Shown piece after piece: positions 12,789-29,387 of a stretch of 64,000 nt of DNA (position 1 is its first letter; each line of letters starts with the position of its first letter). The notes beneath the pieces are model-generated. The model saw nothing but the letters and a program-made list of their open reading frames with translations, had not been told where the DNA came from and did not search any database. This DNA comes from Diaphorobacter sp. HDW4A (GTDB taxonomy: Bacteria; Pseudomonadota; Gammaproteobacteria; Burkholderiales; Burkholderiaceae_C). Made by a program: the position numbers and the translations under genes. The stretch covers positions 4,030,001-4,094,000 of the forward strand of contig NZ_CP049910.1 of assembly GCF_011305995.1 (NCBI RefSeq). Reading direction: 5' to 3'.

Positions 12789-12869
12789 GACCGATCACGT
12801 AACCTGACACCAGATGATTTCTCTGCGTTGCCGCACACGAAGCGGCAACGCGACAAAGAAAGAAGACAC

Positions 12870-15446
12870 ATGCAAGTCACCCGCGTCCGAGCCCTCCGTG
12901 GCCCGAATCTCTGGACCCGCAGCACGGCCATCGAAGCCATCGTGCACTGCGACTCCAATGAGTGCGTGTACTCCGACATCGCCGGTTTTGAAAACCGCCT
13001 GCGCGCACGCTTCCCCAAGATCGGCATCCTGCAACCCCACGGTGCAGACCAGCGCCTGTCGCTCGCCCATGTGCTCGAAGTCGCAGCGCTGTCGCTGCAG
13101 GCACAGGCGGGCTGCCCCGTCACCTTCAGCCGCACGCACTCCACGATCGAGCCCGGCACCTTCCAGGTCGTCGTCGAATACACCGAAGAAGCCGTCGGCC
13201 GCAAGGCCATGGAATATGCCGAGGCGCTGCTGCGCGCGGCGACGGACGACACCCCGTTCGACGCCGACAAGGCGATTGCCGATCTGCGTGACACCGATGA
13301 GGACGAGCGCATCGGCCCCTCGACCGGCTCCATCGTGGACGCCGCCGTCGCACGCGGCATTCCGTTCCGCCGCCTGACCTCGGGCTCGCTCGTGCAGCTC
13401 GGCTGGGGCTCCAAGGCCCGCCGCATCCAGGCCGCCGAGCTCGACATGACCAGCGCCGTGGCCGAGTCCATCGCGCAGGACAAGGACCTCACCAAGCGCC
13501 TGCTGCACGCGGCTGGCGTGCCCGTGCCGCTCGGTCGTCCCGTCAAGGACGTGGGCGACGCCTGGGTCGTTGCACAGGAAGTGGGCCTGCCCGTGGTTGT
13601 GAAGCCGCAGGACGGCAATCAGGGCAAGGGTGTGGTCGTCAACATCACCACGCGCGAAGGCCTCGAAGCCGCCTACAAGGTCGCCGAGGAGTTCGGCGAC
13701 GACGTGATGGTCGAGCGCTTTCTGCCCGGTCATGACTTCCGGCTGCTCGTAGTGGGCGGCCAACTCGTCGCTGCCGCGCGCCGCGAACCGCCGCAGGTGC
13801 TCGGCGATGGCGAACACAACATCCGCGAGCTCGTCGAGATCGTCAATCGCGACCCACGCCGCGGCTCCGGCCACGGCACAGCGCTCACCAAGATCCGCCT
13901 CGACGACATCGCCGTCGCGCGCATCGCCTCCGAAGGCCTGACGCCCGAATCCGTGCCCGCACAGGGCCAGCGCGTCGTGCTGCGCAACAACGCCAACCTG
14001 TCCACCGGCGGCAGCGCCACCGATGTGACCGACGACGTGCACCCAGAGGTCGCCGCCCGTGCCATCGAGGCCGCGCAGACCATCGGCCTGCACATCTGCG
14101 GCGTCGACGTGGTCTGCGAGACCATGCTCAAGCCGCTCGAAGAACAGAACGGCGGCATCGTCGAAGTGAACGCGGCCCCAGGCCTGCGCATGCACCTCGC
14201 CCCCTCCTTCGGCAAGCCGCGCAACGTCGGCGTGCCCATGGTCGACGAGCTGTTCGCGCCCGGTCAGGACGGCCGCATTCCGGTCGTCGCTGTCACCGGC
14301 ACCAACGGCAAGACCACCACCACCCGCGTGATCGCCCACCTGTTCACCTCGCACGGCTGGCGCACAGCGATGACCAACACCGATGGCGTCTACGTCAACG
14401 GTCGCCAGATCGACAGCGGTGACTGCTCCGGCCCCCGCAGCGCCCGCAACGCGCTCGCCCATCCCGAAACCGATGCGGCCGTGCTCGAATGCGCGCGCGG
14501 CGGCATCCTGCGCGAAGGCCTCGGCTTCGACCGCTGCCAGGTGGCCGTGGTCACCAACGTCGGCGAAGGCGACCATCTGGGTCTGAACTTCATCACCACC
14601 GCCGAAGACGTGGCCGTGCTCAAGCGCGTGATCGTGCAGAACGTCGCTCCCTCTGGGTACGCTGTGCTGAACGCCGCCGATCCGCTGGTTGCGGTCATGG
14701 CGTCGGTCTGCCCCGGCAAGGTGATCTTCTTCGCCGCCGACCGCCACCACCCCGTGATGGCCACACACCGCGCACAAGGCAACCGCGTGGTCTACGTCGA
14801 TGGCGACAACATCGTGGCCGCCGAAGGCTCGTGGCGCGAAAGCATTCCGCTGCGCGATATTCCGATCACACGCAGCGGCCTGATCACTTTCCAGGTCGAA
14901 AACGTCATGGCCTCCATTGGCGCCGCATGGGCCTCCGGCCTGCCTTGGCAGACCATCCGCCGCGGCCTGGCTGGCTTCATGAACGACAGCGACAACGCCC
15001 CTGCACGCTTCAACGTGATGGACTATCGTGGCGCCACCGTGATCGCCGACTACGGCCACAATCCCGACGCCATCCGCGCACTTGCACAAGCCGTGCAAGC
15101 CATGCCCGGCAAGCGCCGCAGCGTGGTGATCTCGGGCGCAGGCGACCGCCGCGATCAGGACATCGTCGAGCAGACCCGCATCCTCGGCCAGTACTTCGAC
15201 GACGTGATCCTCTATCAAGACGCCTGCCAGCGCGGCCGTGAAGACGGCGAAGTGCTCGGCCTGCTCAAGCAGGGCCTCGAAGGCGCGCCGCGCACCACAT
15301 ACAGCACCGAGATCCACGGCGAGTTCATCGCCATCGATCACGCGCTGGAACGCCTGCAGCCCGGCGACCTGAGCCTCGTGCTCGTCGATCAGGTGGAAGA
15401 AGCCCTCGCCCACCTGAACAAGCGCTGCGCCGAAGCCAAGGCCTGA
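12870..15446 (+). CDS. cphA: Cyanophycin synthetase CphA
   Basis: 858-residue cytoplasmic enzyme that polymerises Asp and Arg into cyanophycin, a nitrogen/carbon store, at the cost of ATP. The ATP-grasp domain shows IGPSTGSIVDAAVARGI, VKPQDGNQGKGVVV and IVEVNAAPGLRMHL. The Mur-ligase domain has an intact P-loop VTGTNGKTTTTR at about residue 475, ECARGGILREGLGFD, VVTNVGEGDHLG and the C-domain DYGHNPDAIRAL. The length matches the family. The start at 12870 gives the usual N-terminus (MQVTRVRALRGPNLW); an earlier in-frame ATG at 12828 adds 14 charged residues. No cyanophycinase gene is present nearby, so degradation must be encoded elsewhere. Confidence 0.96.
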   Translation: MQVTRVRALRGPNLWTRSTAIEAIVHCDSNECVYSDIAGFENRLRARFPKIGILQPHGADQRLSLAHVLEVAALSLQAQAGCPVTFSRTHSTIEPGTFQVVVEYTEEAVGRKAMEYAEALLRAATDDTPFDADKAIADLRDTDEDERIGPSTGSIVDAAVARGIPFRRLTSGSLVQLGWGSKARRIQAAELDMTSAVAESIAQDKDLTKRLLHAAGVPVPLGRPVKDVGDAWVVAQEVGLPVVVKPQDGNQGKGVVVNITTREGLEAAYKVAEEFGDDVMVERFLPGHDFRLLVVGGQLVAAARREPPQVLGDGEHNIRELVEIVNRDPRRGSGHGTALTKIRLDDIAVARIASEGLTPESVPAQGQRVVLRNNANLSTGGSATDVTDDVHPEVAARAIEAAQTIGLHICGVDVVCETMLKPLEEQNGGIVEVNAAPGLRMHLAPSFGKPRNVGVPMVDELFAPGQDGRIPVVAVTGTNGKTTTTRVIAHLFTSHGWRTAMTNTDGVYVNGRQIDSGDCSGPRSARNALAHPETDAAVLECARGGILREGLGFDRCQVAVVTNVGEGDHLGLNFITTAEDVAVLKRVIVQNVAPSGYAVLNAADPLVAVMASVCPGKVIFFAADRHHPVMATHRAQGNRVVYVDGDNIVAAEGSWRESIPLRDIPITRSGLITFQVENVMASIGAAWASGLPWQTIRRGLAGFMNDSDNAPARFNVMDYRGATVIADYGHNPDAIRALAQAVQAMPGKRRSVVISGAGDRRDQDIVEQTRILGQYFDDVILYQDACQRGREDGEVLGLLKQGLEGAPRTTYSTEIHGEFIAIDHALERLQPGDLSLVLVDQVEEALAHLNKRCAEAKA

Positions 15447-15985: not shown

Positions 15986-16651
15986 TCAGGCCTGCGCAGC
16001 CAGCTTCCGCAGCACCTCCTCAAACACCTCCACCGGCTGCCCACCCTGAATCAGATGGCGATCGTTGACGATCACCGCAGGCACTGAGTTGATGCCGTGC
16101 TGATGGTAGAAAGCCTCGCGTTCGCGTACCTCGCTCGCGTATTCGTCTGAATCCAGTATTGCCTTCGCACGTGCCTCGTCGAGACCCAGCTCGCGAACGA
16201 TGCGCAGCAACACGGCGTGGTCACTGGGGTTTTCTCCGTTCGTGAAATACGCCTTGAAGAATGCATGCTTGAGCGCGCCTTGCTGTTCGGCCTGGCCTTC
16301 TTCCCCCTGCCAATGCAGCAGGCGGTGCGCGTCGAAAGTGTTGTAGATGCGGCTGCGCTGGTCCATATTGAAAGTGAAGCCAACGCCAGCGCCGCGCTCG
16401 GTGATCGCCTGCTGGTTCTTGCGCATCTGCTCGGCGGGTGCACCGTATTTGCGCTGCAGGTGCTCCATGACGTCTTCGCCCTCGGGCACCATGTCCGCGT
16501 TGAGCTCGAACGGCTGGAAGTGCAGGTCGATCTGCACCTCATCCTTCACGCGCTCGGCCGCCATCTCCAGCGCGTTCAGCCCAATGGCGCACCATGGGCA
16601 GGAGACGTCGGAGACGAAGTCGATCTTGAGCTTGGTGGGTGCGTTGGACAT
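15986..16651 (-). CDS. DsbA-family (FrnE-like) thiol oxidoreductase
   Basis: 221-residue thioredoxin-fold protein with active-site CPWC within SDVSCPWCAIGLN, the DsbA/HCCA-isomerase insert helices, and the cis-Pro region GINSVPAVIVND. It lacks a signal peptide, so it is probably cytoplasmic like FrnE, a disulfide reductase/isomerase linked to oxidative stress. The start at 16651 has GGAG about 8 bases upstream; a longer start would add eight residues. The end meets creA stop to stop. Substrates are unknown. Confidence 0.9.
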   Translation of the reverse strand: MSNAPTKLKIDFVSDVSCPWCAIGLNALEMAAERVKDEVQIDLHFQPFELNADMVPEGEDVMEHLQRKYGAPAEQMRKNQQAITERGAGVGFTFNMDQRSRIYNTFDAHRLLHWQGEEGQAEQQGALKHAFFKAYFTNGENPSDHAVLLRIVRELGLDEARAKAILDSDEYASEVREREAFYHQHGINSVPAVIVNDRHLIQGGQPVEVFEEVLRKLAAQA

Positions 16652-16747
16652 GGCAAGGACTCCGTAAGTTTTCAATGAAATGACGTGGATGCAATCTACG
16701 CCATTTCCAGTTTCCCCACGCCGTTTCCGGATGTCCTGCGCAACACG

Positions 16748-17089
16748 TCAATGGCTGATCATCCACGGCCTTTTTGACGGAAAGGTCTTGGCCCCGTTCG
16801 GCGCGGTGACCGTCGCCTTGGACTTCACTCCCGAACAACAGCCACACCCCGCAGGATGCTTGAGCCGCTGGTAGTCGCGCGAGCTGCGCGGCTCGTGGCG
16901 GGCGCGCTCGTTCACGTCCATCGCACGGCGCGTGCCGCCCTCGAGCAGGCCGAGGCGTGGCGCGCTGGCGAAGGTGCGTTCGCTCGCGGCTCCGCATTCT
17001 GGACAGGGCGCGGGCACGTTGCGTTCGGACATCGCGCGAAAGGCATCAAATCCGCCGCATGCGCTGCAGGCATATTCATAAGTGGGCAT
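16748..17089 (-). CDS. fmdB: FmdB-family zinc-ribbon protein
   Basis: 113-residue protein starting MPTYEYACSACGGFDAF, with the FmdB zinc ribbon: paired CxxC (SACG-type pair and PCPECG) in the first 40 residues. The tail is basic, with a late CGCC cluster. FmdB was first described as a putative regulator in the formamidase cluster of Methylophilus; its molecular role remains unclear. It begins 5 bases after the fmdA stop codon, so it is translationally linked to formamidase and is the last gene of the urtABCDE-fmdAB operon. Confidence 0.92.
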   Translation of the reverse strand: MPTYEYACSACGGFDAFRAMSERNVPAPCPECGAASERTFASAPRLGLLEGGTRRAMDVNERARHEPRSSRDYQRLKHPAGCGCCSGVKSKATVTAPNGAKTFPSKRPWMISH

Positions 17090-17094
17090 GGCGA

Positions 17095-18330
17095 CTACAC
17101 CTTCAGGTCGTAGGAGATCGGCATGTCGATGCTGCCGTCGAGGAACTTCGTCGGCCCGGCTGCGCTCGGATTGATGTCGAAGTCGAAGATCTGCGTGGGC
17201 AGCCACAGCGTTGCACAGGCGTTGGGCACATCGACTACGCCGCTGATGTGGCCTTGCACGGGCGCGGTGCCCAGAATCGAATAGGCCTGCGCGCCCGAAA
17301 AACCGAACTTTTTCAGATACTCGATGGCGTTGAGACAGGCCTGGCGATACGCCACGTTCACGTCGAGGTAGTACTGCTTGCCCTGCTCATCCACGCTGAT
17401 GCCTTCGAAGATCAGGTAGTCGTTGTAGGCGGGCGTGATCGGGCTGGGTTTGAAAATCGGGTTCTTGATACCGTACTTCGCCATGCCGCCTTTGATGAGG
17501 CTCACCCGCATGTGCACCCAACCGGCCATTTCGATGGCACCGCAGAAGGTGATCTCGCCGTCGCCCTGGCTGAAGTGCAGATCGCCCACCGACAGGCCCG
17601 CGCCATCGACATACACCGGGAAGAACACCTTCGATCCACGCGACAGATCCTTGATGTCACAGTTGCCACCATGCTCGCGCGGCGGCACGGTGCGCGCGCC
17701 TTCCGCTGCGGCCTTAGCGGCAGCGTCGCCCTTTAGCTTGCCCATGTGGGCAGTGGGTGAGCTTGGTGGATTCGCCAGACTCGGTACGCGTGTGGGGTCG
17801 GTCTGGATCAGGTTGTACTCGCGTTCGTTCCATGTGGCGAGCATCTTGGGGTCCGGCAGGCAGCCGATGAGGCCGGGGTGGATCAGGCCCGCGTAATTCA
17901 CACCCGGCACATGGCGCGAGCTGGTAAACATGCCGTGGAAATCCCAGATCGATTTCTGCGCGGCGGGAAAGTGGTCGGTCAGAAAACCGCCGCCGTTGTT
18001 CTTGCTGAAAAAACCATTGAAACCCCACATGCTTTCCTGCTTGGCACCGATGTCGAGCAGGTCCACCACCAGCAGATCGCCGGGTTCCGCGCCCTTCACG
18101 CCGACGGGACCCGAGAGATAGTGCACCGTGGTCAGGTCGATGTCGCGCACATCATCCGCGCTGTCGTTGTTCTTGATGAAACCGCCCGTCCAGTCATAGG
18201 TTTCGAGCACGAAGTCATCGCCGGGATTGACCCAGCAGGCCATGGGAATGTCGGGATGCCAGCGGTTGTGCACCTGTTCGTTGGAGGGGGCGGGCTGCGA
18301 AAGATCGACCTTGATGAGAGTTTCCGGCAT
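17095..18330 (-). CDS. fmdA: Formamidase FmdA (acetamidase/formamidase family)
   Basis: 411-residue cytoplasmic amidohydrolase that converts formamide to formate and ammonia and may accept other short amides. Family stretches include HNRWHPDIPMACWVNPGDDF, ETYDWTGGFIKNNDSADDV, YLSGPVGVKGAEPGDLLVVD, HGGNCDIKDLSRGSKVFFPV and LHFSQGDGEITFCGAIE. The length matches FmdA of Methylophilus. It lies 41 bases downstream of urtE and just before fmdB, so uptake and hydrolysis of the amide are encoded in one transcription unit. Confidence 0.95.
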   Translation of the reverse strand: MPETLIKVDLSQPAPSNEQVHNRWHPDIPMACWVNPGDDFVLETYDWTGGFIKNNDSADDVRDIDLTTVHYLSGPVGVKGAEPGDLLVVDLLDIGAKQESMWGFNGFFSKNNGGGFLTDHFPAAQKSIWDFHGMFTSSRHVPGVNYAGLIHPGLIGCLPDPKMLATWNEREYNLIQTDPTRVPSLANPPSSPTAHMGKLKGDAAAKAAAEGARTVPPREHGGNCDIKDLSRGSKVFFPVYVDGAGLSVGDLHFSQGDGEITFCGAIEMAGWVHMRVSLIKGGMAKYGIKNPIFKPSPITPAYNDYLIFEGISVDEQGKQYYLDVNVAYRQACLNAIEYLKKFGFSGAQAYSILGTAPVQGHISGVVDVPNACATLWLPTQIFDFDINPSAAGPTKFLDGSIDMPISYDLKV

Positions 18331-18371
18331 GTGATGACTCCTGTTGAAAAGCGGGAATGGAAGATGAAAAG

Positions 18372-19073
18372 TCAGACCGACAGATAGGCTTTGATGTGCG
18401 CCTCATTGGTGTGCTCGCGCGCCGTCTCGTGCACCAGGCGGCCGCCTTCGATCACGAACAGCCGGTCGGCCACATCCATCGCGAACGACAGCACCTGCTC
18501 CGACACCACGATGGTGATGCCGCGCATCTTGCGGATCTCGTTGAGCGCCTTGGCGATGTCCTTGATGATCGAAGGCTGGATGCCTTCCGTGGGCTCGTCG
18601 AGCAGCAACACCTTGGGATTAGTGACCAGCGCGCGCGCAATCGCGAGTTGCTGCTGCTGACCGCCCGAGAGGTTGCCGCCCTTGCGACGCTTCATGTCGA
18701 ACAGCACTGGAAACAGCGCATAGATCTCGTCAGGCACCGAGCGGTTCTTGCTGTTCTCAAGACCCGTCTTGATGTTCTCCTCCACCGTCAGCGTCGGAAA
18801 AATCATACGGCCCTGCGGCACGTAGGCGATGCCCTTGGCGACGCGGCGAAAGCTCTCGTCGCGCGTCACATCGCTCTCGCCGACATGGACCTTGCCGCTC
18901 TTGGTCGGCAGCACGCCCATCAGCGCCTTGAACAGCGTGGTCTTGCCCATTCCGTTGCGGCCCATGATGGCGATGGTCTCGTTGGGTCGGCCTTCGAACG
19001 AGATGCCGTGCAGCGCCTCGCTCTGTCCGTAGGCTACATGCAGGTCATCGACCTTCAACATTGCATTGCTCAT
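18372..19073 (-). CDS. urtE: Urea/amide ABC transporter ATPase UrtE
   Basis: 233-residue ABC ATPase of the branched-chain amino acid/urea class. It has Walker A GRNGMGKTTLFKAL, the Q-loop YVPQGRMIFPTLTVEEN, signature LSGGQQQQLAIARAL and Walker B VLLLDEPTEGIQPS, all in the UrtE form. It pairs with UrtD to energise the UrtBC membrane channel. It is the fifth gene of the operon, 15 bases after urtD. The substrate could be urea or formamide/acetamide, given the adjacent fmdA. Confidence 0.93.
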   Translation of the reverse strand: MSNAMLKVDDLHVAYGQSEALHGISFEGRPNETIAIMGRNGMGKTTLFKALMGVLPTKSGKVHVGESDVTRDESFRRVAKGIAYVPQGRMIFPTLTVEENIKTGLENSKNRSVPDEIYALFPVLFDMKRRKGGNLSGGQQQQLAIARALVTNPKVLLLDEPTEGIQPSIIKDIAKALNEIRKMRGITIVVSEQVLSFAMDVADRLFVIEGGRLVHETAREHTNEAHIKAYLSV

Positions 19074-19088
19074 GTCTTCATCCCTCCT

Positions 19089-19832
19089 TCAATGGCCCAG
19101 ATAGACGTCGATGACCTTGGGATCGGACTGCACCTTCTCCATCGACCCCTCCGCGAGAATCTTTCCCTGGTGCATTACCGTGACCTTGTGCGCAATCTGC
19201 TTGACGAACTCCATGTCGTGCTCGATCACGATCACCGAGCGGTTCTTGCAGATGCGCTTGAGCAGATCGGCGGTGAGCTCGCGCTCCTTGGCACTCATGC
19301 CCGCGATGGGCTCGTCGAGCATCAACAACTCGGGCTCCTGCATCAACAACATACCGATCTCCAGCCACTGCTTCTGGCCATGACTGAGCAGCCCTGCCTC
19401 GGTCTCCATGCGATCCGCGAGGCCGATTTCGCGCGCCACCGCCTCCACGCAGGCCAGCACTTCATCGGTGCACTGAAAGCCGAGCGCGCCCCATACCGTG
19501 CGGCCTGAGGGATACGACACCTCGAGGTTCTTGAACACCGAGAGGTTCTCGTAGATCGACGGCGTCTGGAACTTGCGGCCAATGCCCTGGCGCACGCGCT
19601 TGTATTCGGGCATGCCCGTCAGCTCCTGGTTCTGGAACTTGATGCTGCCCTTGCTCGCCTTGGTCTTTCCGCAGATCAGATCGAGCAGCGTGGTCTTGCC
19701 CGCGCCGTTCGGCCCGATGATCACGCGCAGCTCGTTACGGTCAATGTAGAGGTTCAGACTGTCGATGGCCTTGAAGCCGTCGAACGACACGGTGAGGTCT
19801 TCCACCGCGAGTGCGAAGTCGGTATTGCTCAT
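19089..19832 (-). CDS. urtD: Urea/amide ABC transporter ATPase UrtD
   Basis: 247-residue ABC ATPase. Walker A is GPNGAGKTTLLDLI, Walker B LLMLDEPIAGMSAKE, and the signature reads LSHGQKQWLEIGM, a variant characteristic of UrtD. IGRKFQTPSIYENLSVF is the Q-loop region. It is spaced 12 bases from urtC and 15 from urtE. It works with UrtE at the cytoplasmic face of the permease. Confidence 0.94.
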   Translation of the reverse strand: MSNTDFALAVEDLTVSFDGFKAIDSLNLYIDRNELRVIIGPNGAGKTTLLDLICGKTKASKGSIKFQNQELTGMPEYKRVRQGIGRKFQTPSIYENLSVFKNLEVSYPSGRTVWGALGFQCTDEVLACVEAVAREIGLADRMETEAGLLSHGQKQWLEIGMLLMQEPELLMLDEPIAGMSAKERELTADLLKRICKNRSVIVIEHDMEFVKQIAHKVTVMHQGKILAEGSMEKVQSDPKVIDVYLGH

Positions 19833-19844
19833 GGGTCTTGCTCC

Positions 19845-21029
19845 TTATGCGCCCTGACTGCTGATCTTGGAGTCGGCGCCACGCGGCGCAATCGGGTCGG
19901 GATACGCGGCCTGCGCTGCAGCCACACGTTCCTTGGTGATCTTTTTCTCCTCCTTCAATTTCTTGAAATGCGGCTTGATCTTTTCTTCCCACAAACCCGC
20001 CAGACCCATCGGAAACGCCATGGTCACGCCGATGAACAGCGCCGCCATGAGGAACAGCCACAGGTCGGGGAAGCTCTCTGAAAAAATCGTCTTACCCGCA
20101 TTCACCAGCAGCGTTCCATAGACCGCGCCGACGAGGCTCATGCGACCACCGACCGCCGCGTAAATCACCATCTCGATGGACGGAACGATGCCAACGAAAG
20201 TAGGCGACATGAAGCCCACCTGCAACGTGAACAGCGCACCACCGATACCCGAGAGCGCGGCCGCCAGGCAGAAGGTGAAGACCTTGAAGTTGGCCACGTC
20301 GTAGCCCGAGAAGCGCACGCGGTCTTCCTTGTCGCGCATGGCGAGCAGCAGCGTGCCGAGCTTGCTCGTCTGGATCCAGCGGCACAGCACGATCGATGCG
20401 ACCAACAGCGCCACGCAGACGTAGTAGAGGATGTACTTGGCGCTGTCGGTGCGGGTGTCCCAGCCGAGCAGCGTCCTCAGATCCGTCATGCCGTTCACGC
20501 CGCCGGTGTAGCCCTGTTGACCAATGATGAGCACGGTGACGATCAGCGCCACGGCCTGCGTGATGATCGCAAAATACACACCGCCCACGCGGCGCTTGAA
20601 CATCGCGAAGCTGATGAGCCAGGCCAGCGCCACGGGCACCAACACCACCGCGATCAGCGCGAGCGGCAGGCTCTTGAATGGCAACCAAAGCAGCGGCAGT
20701 TCGGTGAGCTGGTTCCAATCCATGAAGTCGGGAATGCCGGGCGTGGACTGGATCTTGGTGCTCTCGGGATCGGACGCTTCGAGCTTGAGAAACATTGCCA
20801 TCGCATAGCCGCCGAGGCCGAAGAAAACGCCCTGCCCAAGGCTCAGCACGCCGCCGTAGCCCCAGACCATCACGAGGCCAACCGCAACGAAGGCGTAGCA
20901 AAGATATTTGCCCACCATGTTGAGGCGGAAAATGTCGAGCGTGAGCGGCAGCACCACGGCCAGCAGCACGGTGAGAATCACCAGACTCGCGAGCTGGTAG
21001 CGTTGGATCAGGGCTTTGATGGAGTCCAT
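19845..21029 (-). CDS. urtC: Urea/amide ABC transporter permease UrtC
   Basis: 394-residue inner-membrane permease of the LivM/UrtC type with about ten hydrophobic segments. The motif GYGGVLSLGQGVFFGLGGYAMAM near residue 60 (only part quoted) is the UrtC hallmark, and GALFTLQVGFMSPTFVGIV occurs later. The C-terminal ~45 residues after GLWEEKIKPHFKK are charged and cytoplasmic. It lies between urtB and urtD. Confidence 0.94.
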   Translation of the reverse strand: MDSIKALIQRYQLASLVILTVLLAVVLPLTLDIFRLNMVGKYLCYAFVAVGLVMVWGYGGVLSLGQGVFFGLGGYAMAMFLKLEASDPESTKIQSTPGIPDFMDWNQLTELPLLWLPFKSLPLALIAVVLVPVALAWLISFAMFKRRVGGVYFAIITQAVALIVTVLIIGQQGYTGGVNGMTDLRTLLGWDTRTDSAKYILYYVCVALLVASIVLCRWIQTSKLGTLLLAMRDKEDRVRFSGYDVANFKVFTFCLAAALSGIGGALFTLQVGFMSPTFVGIVPSIEMVIYAAVGGRMSLVGAVYGTLLVNAGKTIFSESFPDLWLFLMAALFIGVTMAFPMGLAGLWEEKIKPHFKKLKEEKKITKERVAAAQAAYPDPIAPRGADSKISSQGA

Positions 21030-21068
21030 GTCAGTTCATCCGTTCTTATCGTGAAAATCAACGCGGGT

Positions 21069-21983
21069 TCAACGTCGCACCTTGGATGCGAACAGCCCTT
21101 GCGGACGCACCATCAGGATCAGCACGATCAGCGACAGCGTGAGCACCTTGGCCATGGAGCCGGTCATGAAGAACTCGGTGATCGACTGGGTCTGCGCAAT
21201 GCTGAAGGCCGAGACCACGGTGCCGAGCAAACTCGCCGCACCGCCGAAGGTGACCACAAGGAACGAGTCGACGATGTAGAGCTGGCCGGATGTGGGACCC
21301 GTCGAACCGATGGTCGTGAACGCCGCGCCCGCGATGCCAGCAATGCCGCAGCCGATGGCGAAGGTCAGGCGGTCGGTCTTCTTGGTGTCGATGCCGGTGG
21401 CGTTGGCCATGGTGCGGTTGCTCACCGTGGCGCGCACCCGAAGGCCCCAGCGGCTTCGGTGCAACGCAAGCAACACGCCGAGCGACACGACGATGGTCAG
21501 CGAGAGCACGAAGAGACCGTTGATCGGAATGTCGAGTCCTTCGGCGGGTGACCACGATCCCATGAGCCACTCGGGCAGCGTCGGGCTCACCTCCTTGGGA
21601 TTGATGAACGTGCGAAAGCACTGCTGCAACCCGAGGCTCACGCCCCAGGTGGCAAGCAGCGTATCGAGCGGCCGCGCGTAGAGGTGGCGGATCAGCGCCC
21701 ACTCCATGATCCAGCCCAGCATGAAGGCGAAGACGAAGGCCAGCACGATGGCGAACGGAAAGTAGTACGCCATCGATTCGGGCGACCACCGTTCGGTGAG
21801 CTGCGACATCATGTAGACGGTGTAGGCACCGATCGCCATGAACTCGCCATGCGCCATGTTGATGACGCCCATCTGCCCGAAGATGATGGCAAGGCCCAGT
21901 CCCATGAGCAGCAGCACTGCGAACAGGGACAGGCCCGCAAAGCCTTGCATCAGGCCGATGTTGAGCATGTCTGAGAAGGTCAT
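21069..21983 (-). CDS. urtB: Urea/amide ABC transporter permease UrtB
   Basis: 304-residue LivH/UrtB-type permease. The conserved GLAIIFGQMGVINMAHGEF motif lies near residue 30, with ATWGVSLGLQQCFRTFINP, RATVSNRTMANATGID and the C-terminal VRPQGLFASKVRR. About eight membrane helices are predicted. The start MTFSDMLNIGLM (21983) matches the family; an upstream in-frame start at 22058 would add 25 polar residues. The gap of 106 bases to urtA is the longest within the operon. Confidence 0.92.
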   Translation of the reverse strand: MTFSDMLNIGLMQGFAGLSLFAVLLLMGLGLAIIFGQMGVINMAHGEFMAIGAYTVYMMSQLTERWSPESMAYYFPFAIVLAFVFAFMLGWIMEWALIRHLYARPLDTLLATWGVSLGLQQCFRTFINPKEVSPTLPEWLMGSWSPAEGLDIPINGLFVLSLTIVVSLGVLLALHRSRWGLRVRATVSNRTMANATGIDTKKTDRLTFAIGCGIAGIAGAAFTTIGSTGPTSGQLYIVDSFLVVTFGGAASLLGTVVSAFSIAQTQSITEFFMTGSMAKVLTLSLIVLILMVRPQGLFASKVRR

Positions 21984-22089
21984 GTGGTGGTCTTTCTGCC
22001 TGGCTTTCGTTGTTCGGAAGATCGCGGCATCGGCGACATGCACGCGCGTCATGCGCACGGTGCTGCGATTTCCTCGTCAGTGATTCAGA

Positions 22090-23352
22090 TCACTGGTAGC
22101 CCTTGGGGAATGGATCGGGTTTGATGAGTTCTGGCGATTCGGCGACCACCTTGAATGTGCCGTTGAGTTGGCCCTGCGCGATGCGCGACTTGCTCCATAG
22201 GTGATGGTTCGGGTCGACCTTCACGTAGCCTTCGGGCGCGCTCTTGAGCTCGATGCCCGGCGATGCGGCGACCACCTTGTCCACATCGAAACTACCCGCT
22301 TTCTCGACCGCCGCCTTCCACAGCCACGGGCCGAGATAGGCCGCCTGCGTCACGTCACCGATCACGCCGTCCTTGCCGTACTTGGCCTTGAAGGCTTCGA
22401 CGAACTTCTTGTTGTTGTCGTTGTCGAGCGTCTGGAAATATTTCATCGACGAGTAGAAACCGTTGAAGTTCTCGCCGCCCACGCCGGTCATCTCGTCCTC
22501 GGTCACCGACAGGGTCAGCAGGAACTGCTTGTCGCCCGTGATGCCTGCGGCCTTGAGCTGCTTGTAGAAGGCCACGTTCGATCCGCCCACCACGGCGGCA
22601 AAAATGCAATCCGGCTTGGCGAGCTTGATCTTGTTGATCAACGAATTGAAGTTGGTGTGGCCAAGCGGGTAGTACTCCTCGCCCACCACCTTGCCGATCT
22701 TGGCGACCTGCTCGATGTGCTTGCGCGCAATCTTCATCGACGTGCGCGGCCAGATGTAGTCCGAACCGATCAGGAAGTAGGTCTTGGCCTTCTTCTCCTT
22801 AGCACCCCAGTCGAGGCCGTAGATGATCTGCTGCGTGGCCTCCTGGCCGGTGTAGATCACGTTCTTGCTCTGCTCCAGACCTTCGTAGAAAGTGGGGTAG
22901 TAGAGCAGTCCGTTTTCCTTCTCGAACACCGGCAGCACTGCCTTGCGCGAGGCGCTGGTCCAGCAGCCGAACACGGCGGCCACGCGGTCGTTGACGAGCA
23001 GCTTCTTGCTCTTTTCGGCGAAGGTCGGCCAGTCGGATGCGCCGTCTTCCTTGATCACGCGGATCTTGCGGCCAAGGATGCCGCCGGCGGCATTGATCTG
23101 GTCGATGGCGAGCTGCTCGGCCTGAATCGAACCCGTTTCCGAAATCGCCATCGTGCCACTGGCCGAGTGCAGCTGGCCGACCACCACTTCGCTGTCCGTG
23201 ACGGCGAGCTTGGTCGTGTTCACCTTGGCCGTGGGGAACTGCTGGGCCAGCACCATGCCCGACAGGCCCATGGCGGGCAAAGCGGCAGCACCCTGAATCA
23301 GGCGGCGGCGACCGATATTGATGATGTAGAAGTCGTCAGCGTGTTGAGACAT
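22090..23352 (-). CDS. urtA: Urea/amide ABC transporter substrate-binding protein UrtA
   Basis: 420-residue periplasmic binding protein of the UrtA/FmdD class and the first gene of the operon. The N-terminus has a twin-arginine-like signal (GRRRLIQGAAALPAMGLSG), suggesting Tat export. The mature part carries VVVGQLHSASGTMAISE, FAEKSKKLLVNDRVAAVFG, LYYPTFYEGLEQSKNVIYTG and GSDYIWPRTSMKIA, typical of urea/amide binders. The start at 23352 has GGAG 7 bases upstream, overlapping an alternative ATG four codons earlier. A hairpin and a perfect palindrome lie upstream in the space shared with the sensor kinase gene. Confidence 0.93.
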   Translation of the reverse strand: MSQHADDFYIINIGRRRLIQGAAALPAMGLSGMVLAQQFPTAKVNTTKLAVTDSEVVVGQLHSASGTMAISETGSIQAEQLAIDQINAAGGILGRKIRVIKEDGASDWPTFAEKSKKLLVNDRVAAVFGCWTSASRKAVLPVFEKENGLLYYPTFYEGLEQSKNVIYTGQEATQQIIYGLDWGAKEKKAKTYFLIGSDYIWPRTSMKIARKHIEQVAKIGKVVGEEYYPLGHTNFNSLINKIKLAKPDCIFAAVVGGSNVAFYKQLKAAGITGDKQFLLTLSVTEDEMTGVGGENFNGFYSSMKYFQTLDNDNNKKFVEAFKAKYGKDGVIGDVTQAAYLGPWLWKAAVEKAGSFDVDKVVAASPGIELKSAPEGYVKVDPNHHLWSKSRIAQGQLNGTFKVVAESPELIKPDPFPKGYQ

Positions 23353-23386
23353 CGAATGCTCCAAAGTAGTGAACGGATGCGCACAT

Positions 23387-23407
23387 GCGGCACCGCTTTG
23401 GTGCCGC
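23387..23407 (-). promoter_or_regulatory. Stable hairpin in urtA leader region
   Basis: Perfect inverted repeat GCGGCACC-GCTTT-GGTGCCGC, an 8-bp stem with a 5-base loop, 34-55 bases upstream of the urtA start. It has no T-tract. If transcribed, it would fold in the 5' leader; as DNA, it could be a protein-binding site. Confidence 0.5.
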
Positions 23408-23469
23408 CCCTCTCAGCCCTCTGGTGTGAGCCGGTGTTGTCACTCTAGGGATTGCCCTTGGTTTGGCGA

Positions 23470-23487
23470 ATACGTCAAATGACGTAT
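23470..23487. promoter_or_regulatory. Perfect 8-2-8 palindrome between urtA and the sensor kinase gene
   Basis: The sequence ATACGTCA-AA-TGACGTAT is a perfect dyad 117 bases upstream of urtA and 76 bases upstream of the divergent kinase gene. Its position makes it a candidate operator for the LuxR-type response regulator encoded at 26932-27834. That link is inference; only the dyad is seen directly. Confidence 0.6.
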
Positions 23488-23563
23488 GCGGCTGCGCATG
23501 CCGTGCGTGCGGGTCTGGCGCATTCCTTGCGTCGATGGCGCATCAGACCAACACCAGACAGCC

Positions 23564-26306
23564 ATGTCGCAAACGGCGAATCAGTCCATCATTCGTGTCC
23601 GGCGTGACTACAACGCCTGGGTCGCCAACGAAACGCTGGAGGACTACGCGCTGCGCTACACGCCGCGCAGCTTCCGCAAGTGGTCCGCATTCCGCGTGGG
23701 CAATGCCGCGTTCGGCGCGACCTCGTTTCTCGCGCTCGAGGCCATCGGCGCCACGCTGGCGCTGCGCTATGGCTTCGAGAACGCGCTGTGGAGCATTCTG
23801 GTGGTGGGCATCATCATCTTTCTCACCGGCCTGCCGATCTCGTACTACGCGGCTCGCTACGGCGTGGATGTGGACCTGCTCACGCGCGGCGCGGGCTTCG
23901 GCTACCTGGGCTCGACCATCACCTCGCTGATCTACGCGAGCTTCACCTTCATCTTCTTCGCGCTGGAGGCGGCCATCCTCGCGCTCGCACTCAGGCTGTA
24001 TCTCGACTGGCCGCTGCCCGCGCTCTATCTCGCCTCATCGCTGGTCATCATTCCACTCGTGATGCGCGGGGTCACGCTGATCTCGGCGCTGCAGCTGTGG
24101 ACGCAGCCGGTGTGGCTGTTGCTGTTCGCTCTGCCCTTCATCGCCATTGCGCTCAAGGCTCCGCATCTGTATGGCGAATTCGGCTCGCTGGTAGGCAGCG
24201 TCTCGGGCAGCAATGCGTTCGATCCGTTGATGTTCGGCGTCGGCACGACCATCGCTTTCTCGATGGTCGTGCAGATCGGCGAGCAGGTGGACTACCTGCG
24301 CTTTTTGCCCGAGAAAACGCCTCAGAACCGCCTGTGCTGGTGGACCACGGTGCTCGTGGCCGGGCCGGGCTGGATCGTTCCCGGCATGCTCAAGATGCTG
24401 GGCGGCGCGTTCCTCGCCTTCGTCGCGCTGCAGCACGAGATACCGACCGCGCACGCGATGGAACCCACCCACATGTACACAGTGGGCTTCTCGTATGTGT
24501 TGAGCCATCCCGCCTGGGTGATCGCCGTCACCACGCTGTTCATCGTGATCTGCCAGCTCAAAATCAATCTGACCAACGCGTATGCGGGCTCGCTCGCATG
24601 GTCCAACTTCTTCGCGCGGCTCACGCACAGCCATCCGGGGCGCGTGGTGTGGCTGGTGTTCAACGTGCTGATCGCCGTGCTGCTGATGACGCTGGGCGTC
24701 TTCGGCGCACTCGAGCATGTGCTGGGCTTCTACAGCAACATCGCGATTGCGTGGGTTGGCGCTCTGGTGGCCGACCTCGTCATCAACAAGCCGCTCGGCC
24801 TGAGCCCGCGTTCCATCGAATTCAAGCGCGCGCATCTCTACGACCTGAATCCTGTGGGACTGGTGTCTACCGTAGTCGCGGCCCTGCTTGGCGTGGCTGC
24901 GTATTCGGGTTGGATGGGCCCCACGATGGAGGCCTTCTCGTCGTTTCTTGCACTCGCCGTAGCGCTTGTGACCGCGCCGCTGATCGCGTGGATCACTAGA
25001 GGCAAGTACTACCTGGCGCGCAAGGAGCGGCCCCATTGGCAGCCGGGCGAGGCCGTGCGCTGCTCGGTCTGCGACAACAGCTTCGAATCAGAGGACATGG
25101 CCTGGTGTCCCATCTACGGCGCGCCGATCTGCTCGCTGTGCTGCACGCTCGAATCGCGCTGCCGCGATGGCTGCAAGACGGGCTCGCGCGCATCCGAACA
25201 GATCAGCGACTGGGTGCACCGCTGGCTGCCCACGCGCATCGCGCAGAAGCTCAATTTCCGCGTCGCGCACTATCTGCTTGTGGCCTCCGCGCTGGTCGCG
25301 ATGCTCGCGTCGGTCATCGGCATCATCTATACGCAAGAGATCGTCGCGGGATCGAGTCCAGCGCTGCTGATGGCACCGTTTCTCAAGGTGTTTGCGCTGC
25401 TGTCGCTGGTGGCTGTGGTGAGCGCCTGGTGGATCGTTCTGGCCAGCGAAAGCCGCGTGCTCGCGCAGGACGAATCGAACCGCCACAACCTGCTGCTCAC
25501 CGAAGAGATCGCCGCACACCGCAAGACCGATGCGGCGCTGCAAGCCGCCAAGGAATCCGCAGAGTCCGCCAATCAGGCCAAGACACGCTATGTGGCCGGC
25601 ATCACGCATGAGCTGCGCACACCGCTCAACAGCATCCTCGGCTACTCGCAGATTCTGCTCAAGGAAGATTCCACAAGCGTCAATCCGCGCAAAGCCCTTG
25701 GCACCATCTACCAAAGCGGCGAGCACATGCTGAGCCTGATAGACGGTCTGCTCGATCTCGCGCGCATCGAGGCCGGCCGTTTGCAGCTCGAACCCGCACC
25801 GATCGACCTGCCCGCATTTCTTGAAGAGATCGTCCACATGTTCCGGCCGCAGGCACAAAGCAAGGGCGTGGCGTTTGAATACACCGTTGCGGGCACGCTG
25901 CCGCCATGGACGCGCGCGGACGCCAAGCGGCTCAAGCAGATTCTCATCAACCTGCTCGGCAACGCGGTGCGCTACACCAAGCACGGCTGCGTCACGCTGC
26001 ATGTCGATGCGCGCCGCGAAGTGCTGCGCTTCGACGTGATTGACACCGGCTGCGGTGTAGCGCCGCAGGACCGCTCGCGCATCTTCATGCCATTCGAGCG
26101 CGGCACAGCTGGACGCCGTTCGGGCGAGCCGGGAACAGGCCTTGGCCTCACCATCACAGGGCTGCTCACTACGCTGATGGGCGGCGAACTCACGCTTGCA
26201 CAATCGTCGCCTGCGGGCAGCACGTTCTCGGTGCGCATGCATCTGGCGCGCATCACCGCGCCGCAGAAACCGGTGCGCCACCGCGGGCTGATGACGGGCT
26301 ACATCG
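23564..26306 (+). CDS. Sensor histidine kinase with NCS1-permease-like input domain
   Basis: Membrane sensor kinase starting MSQTANQSIIRVRRDYNAW. Residues 1-~480 form a twelve-helix NCS1 (purine/cytosine/allantoin permease-like) module, e.g. YALRYTPRSFRKWSAFRVGN and GFGYLGSTITSLIYASF. A Cys-rich knuckle (CSVCDNSF ... CSLCC ... CRDGC) lies at ~498-537, two more helices at ~565-635, HisKA with GITHELRTPLNS (His682), and the ATPase lobe NLLGNAVRYTK, DTGCGV, GTGLGLTI. The frame stays open to 26977, but beyond ~26306 it encodes an Arg-rich out-of-frame shadow of a receiver domain, so the functional part is taken to end there. It is divergent from urtA and probably senses urea, amide or purine-related nitrogen compounds; that is inference. 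Confidence 0.85.
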
Positions 26307-26948
26307 GTGCGCGGGCATTCGCTCTTGCTCGTCGACGATCAACCGTTGCAGCGCCAGATGCTCGCCGGCCTGTTGCTGCCACTGGGCTTCAAGATCCGCG
26401 AGGCAGCGAGCGGCACCGAATGCCTCGAGACGCTGCGCGATCACAAGCCGTCCGCCATCCTCATGGACATCAACATGGACGACGATCTCGACGGCTGGGA
26501 CACCGCGCGCACGCTGCGCCAGCGCGGCCATGTGGATATGCCGATTCTCATCGTCTCCGCCAACGTGTTCGAGAACCAGCCGGAACGTCTGGCGGAGTTC
26601 GGCTGTCAGGGCTTCATCGGCAAGCCGGTCATGGAAAGCGAGCTCTTGGCCGCGCTCGAGCGCGTGCTGAGCCTCGAATGGGTCGCGTCCCCGCTGCCCT
26701 TGCTGGCCACACCGCGCGGCCGAGTAGCAGATGCCTCCGATCTGCCCGACGAGGCGAAACAAGAACTGCTGCAGCTGCTGCAGATAGGTCATGCACGCGG
26801 CGCGCAGCGCGCGGCGGCACGGCTTGCGTCCGCACATCCCGAGCATGCCGCGCTGCTGCAAACCTTAAGCGACATGCTCACGCGCTTCGAGCTCGATGCC
26901 GTGCTGGCGCTGTTGAGAGACGAGAGAGACCATGCCACCGAACACTGA
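26307..26948 (+). pseudogene. Receiver domain of the hybrid kinase, frameshifted from it
   Basis: Frame encoding HSLLLVDDQPLQRQML, ILMDINMDDDLDGWD (phosphoacceptor Asp), PILIVSANV and GFIGKPVMESEL, a complete receiver domain, plus a helical tail of ~90 residues. Dropping one G from the GGG at 26313-26315 joins it to the kinase frame as GARHSLLLVDD, with no break in sense. The original gene was therefore probably one hybrid kinase of about 1130 residues, split by a +1 indel or a sequencing error. A GTG at 26307 could allow separate translation of the receiver, but no strong ribosome site precedes it. It overlaps the response regulator gene by 17 bases. Confidence 0.7.
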
Positions 26949-27834
26949 TCTTCACATGCCTCATGAAAAGGGCGTGATCCTCGTTGTCGACGATGCACCC
27001 GATACCCTCGCCCTGCTCTGCGACACGTTGGATCTGCATGGCTACACCGTGCTCGTCGCGACTGACGGGGAAAGCGCGATCCAGCGACTGGCCTATGTGA
27101 TTCCCGATGCCATCCTGCTCGACGGCGTGATGCCCGGCGCGTCGGGCTTCGAGACCTGCCGGCGCATCAAGGCCGAGCCCGCATGGGCACACATTCCGGT
27201 GATCTTCATGACGGGCCTGGCCGAAACCGAGAACATCGTCGCGGGCTTCGACAGCGGCGGCGTGGACTATGTCGTCAAGCCGGTGCGCGAGGCCGAAATC
27301 CTCGCGCGCCTGACCACGCATGCGCGCAACGCACGCATCTCGCGCATGGTGCGCGACGCGGTGGATGTGGCGGGAACGGGCTCGTTGATCGTCGATGCAC
27401 AGGGTCGCATCGCCTGGGTGTCGCCGCTCGCTCAAGGCTGGCTTGCGACACTGCCACGCAGTCATTCAGACGCTGCGTTGCCCGATGCAATTCACCATGT
27501 GCTCACCAAGGACGATGTGCTGCATGTGACCGGTGACGACGGCAGGCCGCTGTGCATCCGCAATCTGGGATGCGCGGCGCTCGGAGAGACCATGCTGCTA
27601 CTGTCGCAGACCCCGGAGCCGCAGCGCAATGACCGCCTCGCCGATGCACGGCTCACTCCGCGCGAGACCGAGGTTCTGTCGTGGCTGGCCAAGGGCAAGA
27701 CCAACCGAGACATCTCCGAGATCCTCAGCATGAGCCCGCGCACGGTGAGCAAGCACCTTGAGCACATCTTCGAGAAGCTCGGCGTGGAGACGCGATCCGC
27801 CGCCGCCGCGCTCGCAAGCGGTGCAGTGGCATGA
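26932..27834 (+). CDS. LuxR-family DNA-binding response regulator
   Basis: 300-residue response regulator. The receiver domain has VILVVDDAPDT, phosphoacceptor Asp in PDAILLDGVMPG, FMTGLAE and the conserved Lys in DYVVKPVREAE. A short PAS-like middle section (GTGSLIVDAQGRIAWVSPL) leads to a C-terminal LuxR helix-turn-helix: LTPRETEVLSWLAKGKTN ... ILSMSPRTVSKHLEHIFEKLGV. It overlaps the end of the kinase receiver region by 17 bases, so the genes are translationally coupled cognates. The likely targets are the divergent urtABCDE-fmdAB operon and itself. Confidence 0.92.
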   Translation: MPPNTDLHMPHEKGVILVVDDAPDTLALLCDTLDLHGYTVLVATDGESAIQRLAYVIPDAILLDGVMPGASGFETCRRIKAEPAWAHIPVIFMTGLAETENIVAGFDSGGVDYVVKPVREAEILARLTTHARNARISRMVRDAVDVAGTGSLIVDAQGRIAWVSPLAQGWLATLPRSHSDAALPDAIHHVLTKDDVLHVTGDDGRPLCIRNLGCAALGETMLLLSQTPEPQRNDRLADARLTPRETEVLSWLAKGKTNRDISEILSMSPRTVSKHLEHIFEKLGVETRSAAAALASGAVA

Positions 27835-27860
27835 GCAACGTGGCATGCGGCGCTGATCGC

Positions 27861-29387
27861 TCAGTCAGCCTTGACGAGCCAGTTGCGCAGCTCAGTCTTG
27901 AGCACCTTGCCGTAGCTGTTCTTGGGCAAAGCATCGACAAAGCGATAGGACTTGGGCCGCTTGAAACGTGCGATGTGATCGAGACACAGTGCATCGAGCT
28001 CGGCATCATCAGGCCGCGCACCTTCACCCGTGACGAGGAAGGCGATGACCACCTCTCCCCAGTCCGCATCGCGCTGGCCAACGACCGCCACCTCGCTGAT
28101 CTGCGGATGCAGCAGCAACACCTCTTCGACCTCACGCGGATAGATGTTGGAGCCGCCCGAGATGATCACGTCCTTGGAGCGATCACGCAGCGTGAGAAAG
28201 CCGTCGGCATCCATGCTCGCCACATCGCCCGTGTGCAGCCAGCCGTTGCGCAGCGTGCTGTGCGTGGCGGCCTCATTCGCCCAGTAGCCCGCCATCACTG
28301 CATCGCCGCGCACGATCACCTCACCCAGTTCGCCGACCGGCACTTGACGGTCATCCGTATCGACCACGCGCACCTCGACACTGGCATGCGCCTTGCCGAC
28401 TGAGGCGATGCGCTCGGCCCAGCGCGGATGCGCTGCGTCCGCGATCTGCTCACGCGCGAGTGCGGTGATGGTCATCGGGCATTCGCCCTGGCCGTAGATC
28501 TGCACGAACTTCTGGCCCATGGTGTCGAGCGCGTTGCGCAGGTCTTCCACATACATCGGACCACCTCCGTAGACGATGGTCTTGAATCCATCCACATCCG
28601 CCCTCGAGCGGCGGATGTGATCAACGAGACGGTGCACCATGGTGGGCGCAGCGAACAGGCTCAGGTGACCGATGGATGCTGCCAGCTCCACGAGTTCGGC
28701 CGGATCAAAGCCGCCCGACACGGGCACCACATGCTTTGCGCCGCGCAGCATGTGTGCGTAGTTGTAGAGGCCCGCACCGTGCGACATGGGCGCGGCGTAG
28801 ACCATGGCGTCATGCATCTGCACATCGTCCACATCGGTGAAGTAGGCCATGGTCGTGGCGAGCAGGTTGCGGTGCGTCTGCATCACGCCCTTCGGCCTGC
28901 CCGTAGTACCGGATGTGTAGAACAGCGAGGCCACGTCATCGGGACGTTTGTCCTCCATCGCAAGCGGGTTTCCGTCGTTCACTGCGGCTTGCCACGCCGC
29001 GCTGCCGAAGACCAACAGATCGTAGGCCGCCGCGCCCGCATCCAGCGCCGAATCGTGCAGCTCGGGCGACACGCAGACCACACGCGCACCGGAGTTCTCG
29101 AGCACGTAGGCCAGCTCCTTGCTGTGCAGCTTGTAGTTCACCGGCACCGAGATCGCACCGGCCCAGTGGATGGCGTGCAGCGCCTCAAGATACTGCGGGC
29201 AGTTGGCGGAAAAGATGGCAACGCGGTCACCGGACCGCACGCCGCAGCTCTCGCGCAAATGGCCTGCGATGCGCGCCACGCGGTCCGCGAGCGTGCGGTA
29301 GTCGCAGACCAGCTGCGTTCCGGCAAAAACGGCGGGGCGTTCTCTATGCGCGAGTGCCGTGCGATGGAGCAGCTGCGAGATGTTCAT
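27861..29387 (-). CDS. AMP-dependent acyl-CoA ligase
   Basis: 508-residue adenylate-forming enzyme that activates a carboxylic acid to its CoA thioester. Motifs: P-loop YTSGTTGRPKGVMQTH, A5 YGQGECPMT (QGE replaces the more common QTE), A7 GWLHTGDVASMDADG, A8 RSKDVIISGGSNIYPREVEE and catalytic Lys in PKNSYGKVLKTEL. It is cytoplasmic, with the usual family length. Its start overlaps the thiolase stop (ATGA), showing translational coupling. The substrate cannot be read from sequence; aromatic or medium-chain acids are plausible. Confidence 0.9.
   Translation of the reverse strand: MNISQLLHRTALAHRERPAVFAGTQLVCDYRTLADRVARIAGHLRESCGVRSGDRVAIFSANCPQYLEALHAIHWAGAISVPVNYKLHSKELAYVLENSGARVVCVSPELHDSALDAGAAAYDLLVFGSAAWQAAVNDGNPLAMEDKRPDDVASLFYTSGTTGRPKGVMQTHRNLLATTMAYFTDVDDVQMHDAMVYAAPMSHGAGLYNYAHMLRGAKHVVPVSGGFDPAELVELAASIGHLSLFAAPTMVHRLVDHIRRSRADVDGFKTIVYGGGPMYVEDLRNALDTMGQKFVQIYGQGECPMTITALAREQIADAAHPRWAERIASVGKAHASVEVRVVDTDDRQVPVGELGEVIVRGDAVMAGYWANEAATHSTLRNGWLHTGDVASMDADGFLTLRDRSKDVIISGGSNIYPREVEEVLLLHPQISEVAVVGQRDADWGEVVIAFLVTGEGARPDDAELDALCLDHIARFKRPKSYRFVDALPKNSYGKVLKTELRNWLVKAD

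Follow-up and report, generated by a model that had tools for sequence, protein, structure and literature searches.

In a 64,000-nucleotide stretch of the genome of Diaphorobacter sp. HDW4A (contig NZ_CP049910.1, positions 4,030,001 to 4,094,000; called here the window), a closely spaced minus-strand operon, urtABCDE-fmdA-fmdB (23364 down to 16748), faces the divergent gene of a sensor histidine kinase with a permease-like input domain, which is followed by the gene of a LuxR/NarL-type response regulator. We propose, at a probability of about 60%, that the locus encodes a two-component system which responds to urea and short amides and switches on the operon. The gene content of the locus, its linkage in other genomes, the homology of the input domain to NCS1 proteins, an eight-cysteine module, a palindrome and a sigma-54-like element are computed from the sequences. 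We infer the ligand and its direct binding, the order of phosphate transfer, the binding of the regulator to the palindrome and the activation of the operon. The NCS1-type domain would bind extracellular urea or a short-chain amide such as formamide or acetamide, and the resulting conformational change would be relayed by the cysteine module and by two further membrane helices, which lie between this module and the kinase core, leading to autophosphorylation of the core. The phosphate would then pass to the LuxR/NarL-type regulator, which would bind the 7-2-7 palindrome in the urtA/kinase intergenic region and turn on urtABCDE-fmdA-fmdB. The kinase and regulator genes probably have a sigma-54 promoter and would then be expressed when nitrogen is limiting.

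A preliminary description of the window had recognized urtABCDE, the formamidase gene and fmdB as one operon opposite the kinase and LuxR pair. These genes are in place, and they match their family models above the cut-offs, including the curated cut-offs of the TIGR models for all five Urt proteins (Table 1). The description was accurate as observation and overlooked a frame break before the receiver domain of the kinase, the cysteine module, the operator and the sigma-54-like element. The predicted substrate of UrtABCDE is urea or short amides. The zinc ribbon of FmdB is part of the longer RPWMISH family (NF053663). The transporter-derived membrane domain and the histidine kinase core share one reading frame in the window, and the regulator combines a Response_reg domain with a GerE helix-turn-helix, which places it in the NarL/FixJ type.

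An NCS1-type input domain and a cysteine module

Within Pfam, the input domain has no match at E ≤ 10 to PF02133 or to SSF, the model of SLC5 transporters, and a phmmer search against solved structures recovered chance matches only (best E 0.45). More sensitive comparisons support the earlier recognition of the domain as NCS1-permease-like. A stand-alone permease from one of the loci (L157), which itself matches PF02133 at 3.6e-9 and which on its own likewise has only a chance match among solved structures, aligns with the kinase input domain at 30% identity (E 1.4e-38, residues 23-497). In hhalign the domain matches stand-alone NCS1 permeases over 421 columns (99.9%, E 2.6e-33), and a mixed profile of kinases and permeases matches CodB at 2.6e-9. 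Mhp1 and CodB lead the fold rankings in Foldseek and VIA-align, with NCS1 structures above those of SLC5, in agreement with an NCS1/LeuT fold. Homology to NCS1 proteins is detectable across the whole domain, and its core keeps the conserved motifs of the family, with invariant residues throughout. On these profile and fold comparisons the input domain is NCS1-derived and too diverged for the Pfam model; by the lack of an SSF match, the protein is not a kinase of the SLC5-STAC kind. The L157 permease (L157:2949-6168), an NCS1 protein of the same sub-type, adjoins a protein with two carbon-nitrogen hydrolase stretches and is perhaps a nitrile or amide transporter.

After the permease domain lies a module with the pattern C-x2-C-x11-C-x7-C-x2-C-C-x5-C-x3-C. 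All eight cysteines are kept in 131 of 132 relatives, the remaining one being truncated before the module, and their exact spacing is found in 78 of 80 named loci; L206 has all eight with one extra residue, and L195 lacks the last two. No Pfam family covers the module, and positions 25150-25590 have no match at E ≤ 10. A profile search of 200 genomes returned 28 matches in 26 genomes, every one of them inside a kinase of the present family; since scoring was limited to 30 candidates per genome, rarer carriers of the module may be missed. The core of an AlphaFold 2 model of the module alone has a predicted local distance difference test (pLDDT) score of ∼95. Its closest matches in the PDB are treble-clef zinc fingers of the RING, FYVE, PHD, LIM and C1 kinds; the best has E 0.1 and none reaches E ≤ 0.001, so that "RING/FYVE-like" denotes a resemblance only. 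The module probably binds zinc. It is very unlikely, in our estimate, that the module is the real sensor, of a metal or of redox state, and the permease domain a mere anchor. The invariance of the eight cysteines and the nickel requirement of urease fit such a role; the permease core, however, is conserved as strongly as a working domain, and the modeled module resembles, weakly, structural zinc fingers.

Linkage to urea and amide genes and a predicted operator

In the window's family, 114 of 200 genomes carry relatives of the kinase, including four in which all matches are weak (best E weaker than 1e-10); across the phylum, relatives are present in 58 of 398 sampled genomes, 52 of which have matches at E below 1e-100. 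Among the best 80 of 588 confirmed matches, the named carriers are Variovorax, Pseudomonas, Stutzerimonas, Bradyrhizobium, Paraburkholderia, Methylomonas and a few cyanobacteria; the best-named kinase relatives are Comamonadaceae (Pseudacidovorax, Xenophilus, Variovorax). Linkage was assessed in 130 kinase regions, a part of the places found in the family and phylum genomes, which hold 132 kinase copies and overlap with the set of 80 named loci. A marker counted as linked if its match exceeded 80 bits within 10 kb of the kinase; UreC, UreB, UreA, UreG and the aliphatic amidase were identified by NCBIfam models and AmiS/UreI by Pfam. The preliminary description had staked its reading on the kinase staying beside these genes in relatives, and it does: a urt, fmdA, amiE or urease gene lies within 10 kb of 126 of the 132 copies, and urea or amide genes lie near the kinase in 76 of the 80 named loci. 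As a gauge of chance linkage, the window's genome, of 6.76 Mb in three contigs, has three strong UrtA-like or urease regions, which with 10 kb margins make up ∼1-2% of its length. Outside the window, this genome holds a second urt-amiE locus, with another UrtA-like gene after it, and a urease locus whose urt genes are divergent (L263 and L262).

The partners of the 126 linked copies are urt with fmdA and amiE (37), urt with fmdA (28), urease (21), a second type of urt with urease (19), fmdA with AmiS (8), second-type urt (6), urt (3) and other mixtures (4). The second-type UrtA matches TIGR03407 with higher scores than the UrtA of the window. In three of the six unlinked copies (L099 second copy, L125, L156) the end of a contig or locus interrupts the region, and in the other three (L050, L053, L061) it does not; of the four unlinked named loci, two have short flanks (L206, L251) and two are cyanobacterial (L245, L248). 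In a tree of the 132 input domains, one clade (41 leaves, support 0.997) unites the betaproteobacterial copies linked to urease and another (8 leaves, support 1.0) the AmiS-linked copies; a second-type-urt clade (5 leaves, support 1.0) is nested among the formamidase-linked copies, besides further single cases. The partner sets of the kinase thus switch on the tree and stay within urea and amides, which makes urea or a short amide the simplest common signal.

Some of these loci depart from the common plan. In the AmiS-linked group L063-L068 the kinases lack a receiver, and the response regulator encoded after them carries an EAL domain (Pfam, for one member, L064); judging by k-mers such as TACATGA, the operator of this group may be a different one. 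Kinase copies also occur in three loci labeled as cyanobacterial (L220, L245, L248). The kinase cores of L245 and L248 are unlike their proteobacterial counterparts, which points to transfer and domain exchange, and L248 has an isochorismatase-family hydrolase gene downstream of the kinase.

NCS1 homologues classically transport nucleobases, hydantoins and allantoin, as reflected in Pfam's name of PF02133, and the preliminary description had listed purine breakdown products beside urea and amides as possible ligands. The neighbors of the kinase are urea and amide genes, and no purine or pyrimidine catabolic gene is found among the conserved neighbor families identified, a set that does not extend to rarer families. 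We therefore rejected sensing of purine breakdown products, and consider a receptor for a purine or pyrimidine product such as allantoin or uracil highly improbable; urea and amides are kept as the working idea.

The putative target of the regulator was sought in 68 intergenic regions of 60-900 bp between divergent urtA and kinase genes. The k-mers of ATACGTCA are overrepresented, occurring in 44 of the 68 regions against 0.3 expected, and belong to the palindrome TACGTCA-NN-TGACGTA. Its outer bases, TACG-N8-CGTA, are present in 59 regions against 0.02 expected, and the same half-sites spaced by N6, N7, N9 or N10 are present in none of the 68. The window's genome contains one perfect copy of the palindrome, at 23471-23486, and four with two mismatches; a control pattern, written backwards, occurs 24 times per strand. 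Upstream of urtA in second-type urt loci the palindrome is found in 19 of 23 cases (0.05 expected), with the inner bases altered. A 7-2-7 inverted repeat beginning with TAC is a known layout for sites of NarL-type regulators. The predicted site is in keeping with the NarL-type regulator encoded next door.

The same regions contain GG[CT]N7TTGC, the core of sigma-54 promoters, in the direction of the kinase in 32 of 68 cases and in the direction of urtA in 2, with 4.4 expected per strand; patterns with the spacing one or two bases off occur in 2 to 8 of the 68. A sigma-70 promoter scan of 16600-28000 was uninformative (1 site against 2.3 expected). The orientation of the element suggests that nitrogen limitation probably makes the sensor, and that the sensor then reports urea or amides. 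The tie to nitrogen control would also suit a kinase that commands the operon without binding urea or amides, reading ammonium or the general nitrogen state, or coupling to the activity of the Urt transporter. Ks-Amt5, the closest transporter-like nitrogen sensor, senses ammonium according to the available excerpts of its description (PMC5764959). We regard this explanation as unlikely: the NCS1-type core retains the conserved motifs of its family, and the partner genes are specific to urea and amides, which a general nitrogen sensor need not track.

Several observations weigh against the proposed control of the operon by a urea and amide receptor. The palindrome is missing from 9 of the 68 urtA/kinase regions. 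It occurs upstream of only 2 of 39 urease genes and only 1 of 42 urease-linked kinases, and the AmiS group has it in 2 of 27 regions, both from L102, so that regulation of these genes receives no support from the palindrome. The two further loci in the window's own genome (L263, L262) lack both a kinase and the TACG-N8-CGTA operator, two congeners (G018 and G147) lack the kinase, and the surroundings of the kinase in the cyanobacterial locus L245 contain no recognized urea or amide gene. Finally, the receiver domain of the window kinase is out of frame, and the protein is thus not a hybrid kinase with an in-frame receiver as it is encoded in the window. Separately, we considered that the kinase might command the urease promoter through the same operator; with 2 of 39 urease upstream regions carrying it and no site at the urease genes of the window strain, this idea is unsupported.

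The receiver frame and annotation of the locus

The kinase frame is open without a stop to 26977, while the receiver domain (26307-26948) is encoded in another frame. The junction is in frame in all six named relatives read there and in a congener (L260) that has the same flanking genes and a kinase of 1141 residues with an intact receiver. The window copy therefore differs from its relatives by one base, through either mutation or assembly error, and may itself be impaired. In the assembly of this congener the whole locus occurs a second time, in a more diverged form that has a perfect palindrome (L261); at 83% completeness and 6% contamination of the assembly, this copy may be foreign.

Kinases have at least 1080 residues in 120 of the 132 relatives. 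Eight of the 12 shorter ones are of the fmdA-AmiS type (875-936 residues) and end without a receiver; the others are L069 (1008), L156 (1026), L098 (917), whose frame leaves the receiver, and L062, apparently broken, which ends after 410 residues. The frame break in the window may be a real lesion in a decaying system, leaving the sensor of this strain non-functional or constitutive. We think this quite possible, while leaning the other way. The in-frame junctions of the relatives and the congener, the broken appearance of L062 and L098 and the absence of the kinase from two congeners speak for decay. Against it, HisKA, HATPase_c, the regulator and a perfect operator are all intact in the window, the break may be a sequencing error, and the eight fmdA-AmiS-type copies that naturally end without a receiver indicate that the receiver is not always needed.

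The features of the locus are collected in Table 1. Three starts called for a choice. The kinase frame opens at 23486, upstream of the sigma-54-like element, and the ATG at 23564 is therefore the likelier start. The fmdB frame extends to 17206; its start was set at 17089 because both matching models begin at residue 40. The true start of urtB probably lies further in than 22058.

Table 1. Annotated features of the urt-fmd locus and the facing two-component genes (positions in the window)
Feature	Position	Strand	Basis
fmdB, RPWMISH-domain zinc-ribbon protein	16748..17089	-	NF053663, 152.6 bits (cut-off 120); TIGR02605
fmdA, formamidase	17095..18330	-	NF045496, 762 bits (cut-off 500); PF03069
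urtE, ABC ATPase	18372..19073	-	TIGR03410, 335 bits
urtD, ABC ATPase	19089..19832	-	TIGR03411, 375 bits
urtC, permease	19845..21029	-	TIGR03408, 442 bits
urtB, permease	21069..22058	-	TIGR03409, 399 bits; model begins at residue 37
urtA, substrate-binding protein	22090..23364	-	TIGR03407, 521 bits (cut-off 493)
Predicted operator, 7-2-7 palindrome TACGTCA-NN-TGACGTA	23471..23486	unstranded	Conserved in urtA/kinase intergenic regions
Sigma-54-like -24/-12 element upstream of kinase	23516..23531	+	GG[CT]N7TTGC
Sensor histidine kinase, reading frame	23564..26977	+	From ∼26330 out of frame with the receiver domain
NCS1-permease-like input domain (approximate limits)	23642..25009	+	hhalign, Foldseek, VIA-align
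Eight-cysteine module	25061..25174	+	C-x2-C-x11-C-x7-C-x2-C-C-x5-C-x3-C
HisKA and HATPase_c	25577..26248	+	PF00512, 8.9e-19; PF02518, 9.2e-24
Receiver (REC) part of hybrid kinase, frame differs from kinase	26307..26948	+	PF00072, 2.5e-22
Response regulator, Response_reg and LuxR/GerE	26932..27834	+	PF00072, 1.1e-23; PF00196, 5.8e-20

Elsewhere in the window, a cyanophycin synthetase-like gene (12828-15446, plus strand) lies near the urea/amide operon and puts nitrogen storage beside nitrogen uptake. A single 3974-residue frame that contains long internal repeats (39625-51549, minus strand) presumably resembles a giant adhesin of the BapA/RTX kind; the AT skew is strongly negative within it, at 44-48 kb.

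Comparison with known systems

To our knowledge, no membrane receptor for urea or short amides has been named in bacteria, and a description of the kinase family was not found among open-licence PMC papers. If the proposed reading is true, the family would supply such a receptor, with a defined target site as readout, and a means of studying genetically how soil and plant-associated bacteria scavenge nitrogen from urea and amides. More tentatively, at a little under even odds, the kinases may represent a widespread undescribed receptor class in alpha-, beta- and gammaproteobacteria, in which an NCS1 fold serves as kinase input, carries a RING/FYVE-like zinc module, recognizes urea or short amides directly and acts through a NarL-type palindrome on both uptake and hydrolysis. 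Urea and short amides would then stand for the minimal N-C=O unit of NCS1 substrates.

The known control of amidase and urea genes, by AmiC-AmiR and NtrBC, partly shares its target genes with the present system; AmiC senses as a binding protein and AmiR acts as an antiterminator in the excerpts available (PMC13209695). According to the same excerpts, Pseudomonas veronii Yu15 has a urt-fmd-amiE cluster, grows on formamide and acetamide and lacks amiC/amiR at this place; that text does not use the terms "histidine kinase", "two-component" or "response regulator". The nearest printed trace of the kinase family, among the partly available sources, is Table 4 of PMC2907700, in which a 1131-residue histidine kinase and a 308-residue CheY-like receiver of Dechloromonas aromatica adjoin urtA and urease genes, tabulated there, in the part available, without comment. 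AmsSR of Acinetobacter baumannii has a similar outline in the part of its description available to us, with 14 predicted membrane helices, a hybrid kinase without Hpt and an adjoining NarL/LuxR regulator (PMC10112286). It is described as a regulator of central metabolism with expression induced by carbonyl cyanide m-chlorophenyl hydrazone (CCCP), in a text that does not contain the word "urea" (PMC10112286). No Acinetobacter names are among the 120 matches listed in the protein search, and AmsSR, compared here by its published description only, may or may not be related.

Mhp1 and CodB resemble the input domain in fold and profile; they are, however, stand-alone transporters, and the kinase domain has diverged too far for their Pfam model. 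Ks-Amt5, an ammonium transporter fold joined to a histidine kinase that senses ammonium (PMC5764959, PMC8534201), likewise uses the fold of a nitrogen-compound transporter as a kinase sensor. As far as its available excerpts go, it is an Amt protein of one anammox lineage, whereas the present family is NCS1-type, keeps company with urea and amide genes and spans many lineages. CbrA, CrbS (MxtR) and RpuS, in which an SLC5 transporter is joined to a kinase via STAC, are proposed transceptors in the parts of the literature available (PMC13022988, PMC7918813, PMC9100948, PMC5715377). The likeness to CbrA-type kinases noted in the preliminary description is borne out: both families, on those excerpts, consist of a whole secondary-transporter domain, a small linker and a histidine kinase, often with a receiver and with an adjoining partner regulator. 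They differ in that CbrA, CrbS and RpuS use SLC5 and STAC and respond to histidine, acetate and pyruvate, whereas the present family has an NCS1-derived domain, a cysteine module and, by our proposal, other ligands. The cysteine module sits where STAC sits in CbrA, which offers a test of how transporter conformation reaches a kinase. We take the kinase family to be a new variant among transporter-like sensor kinases such as CbrA and Ks-Amt5; if so, NCS1 would join SLC5 and Amt among the transporter folds that have been turned into sensor kinases.

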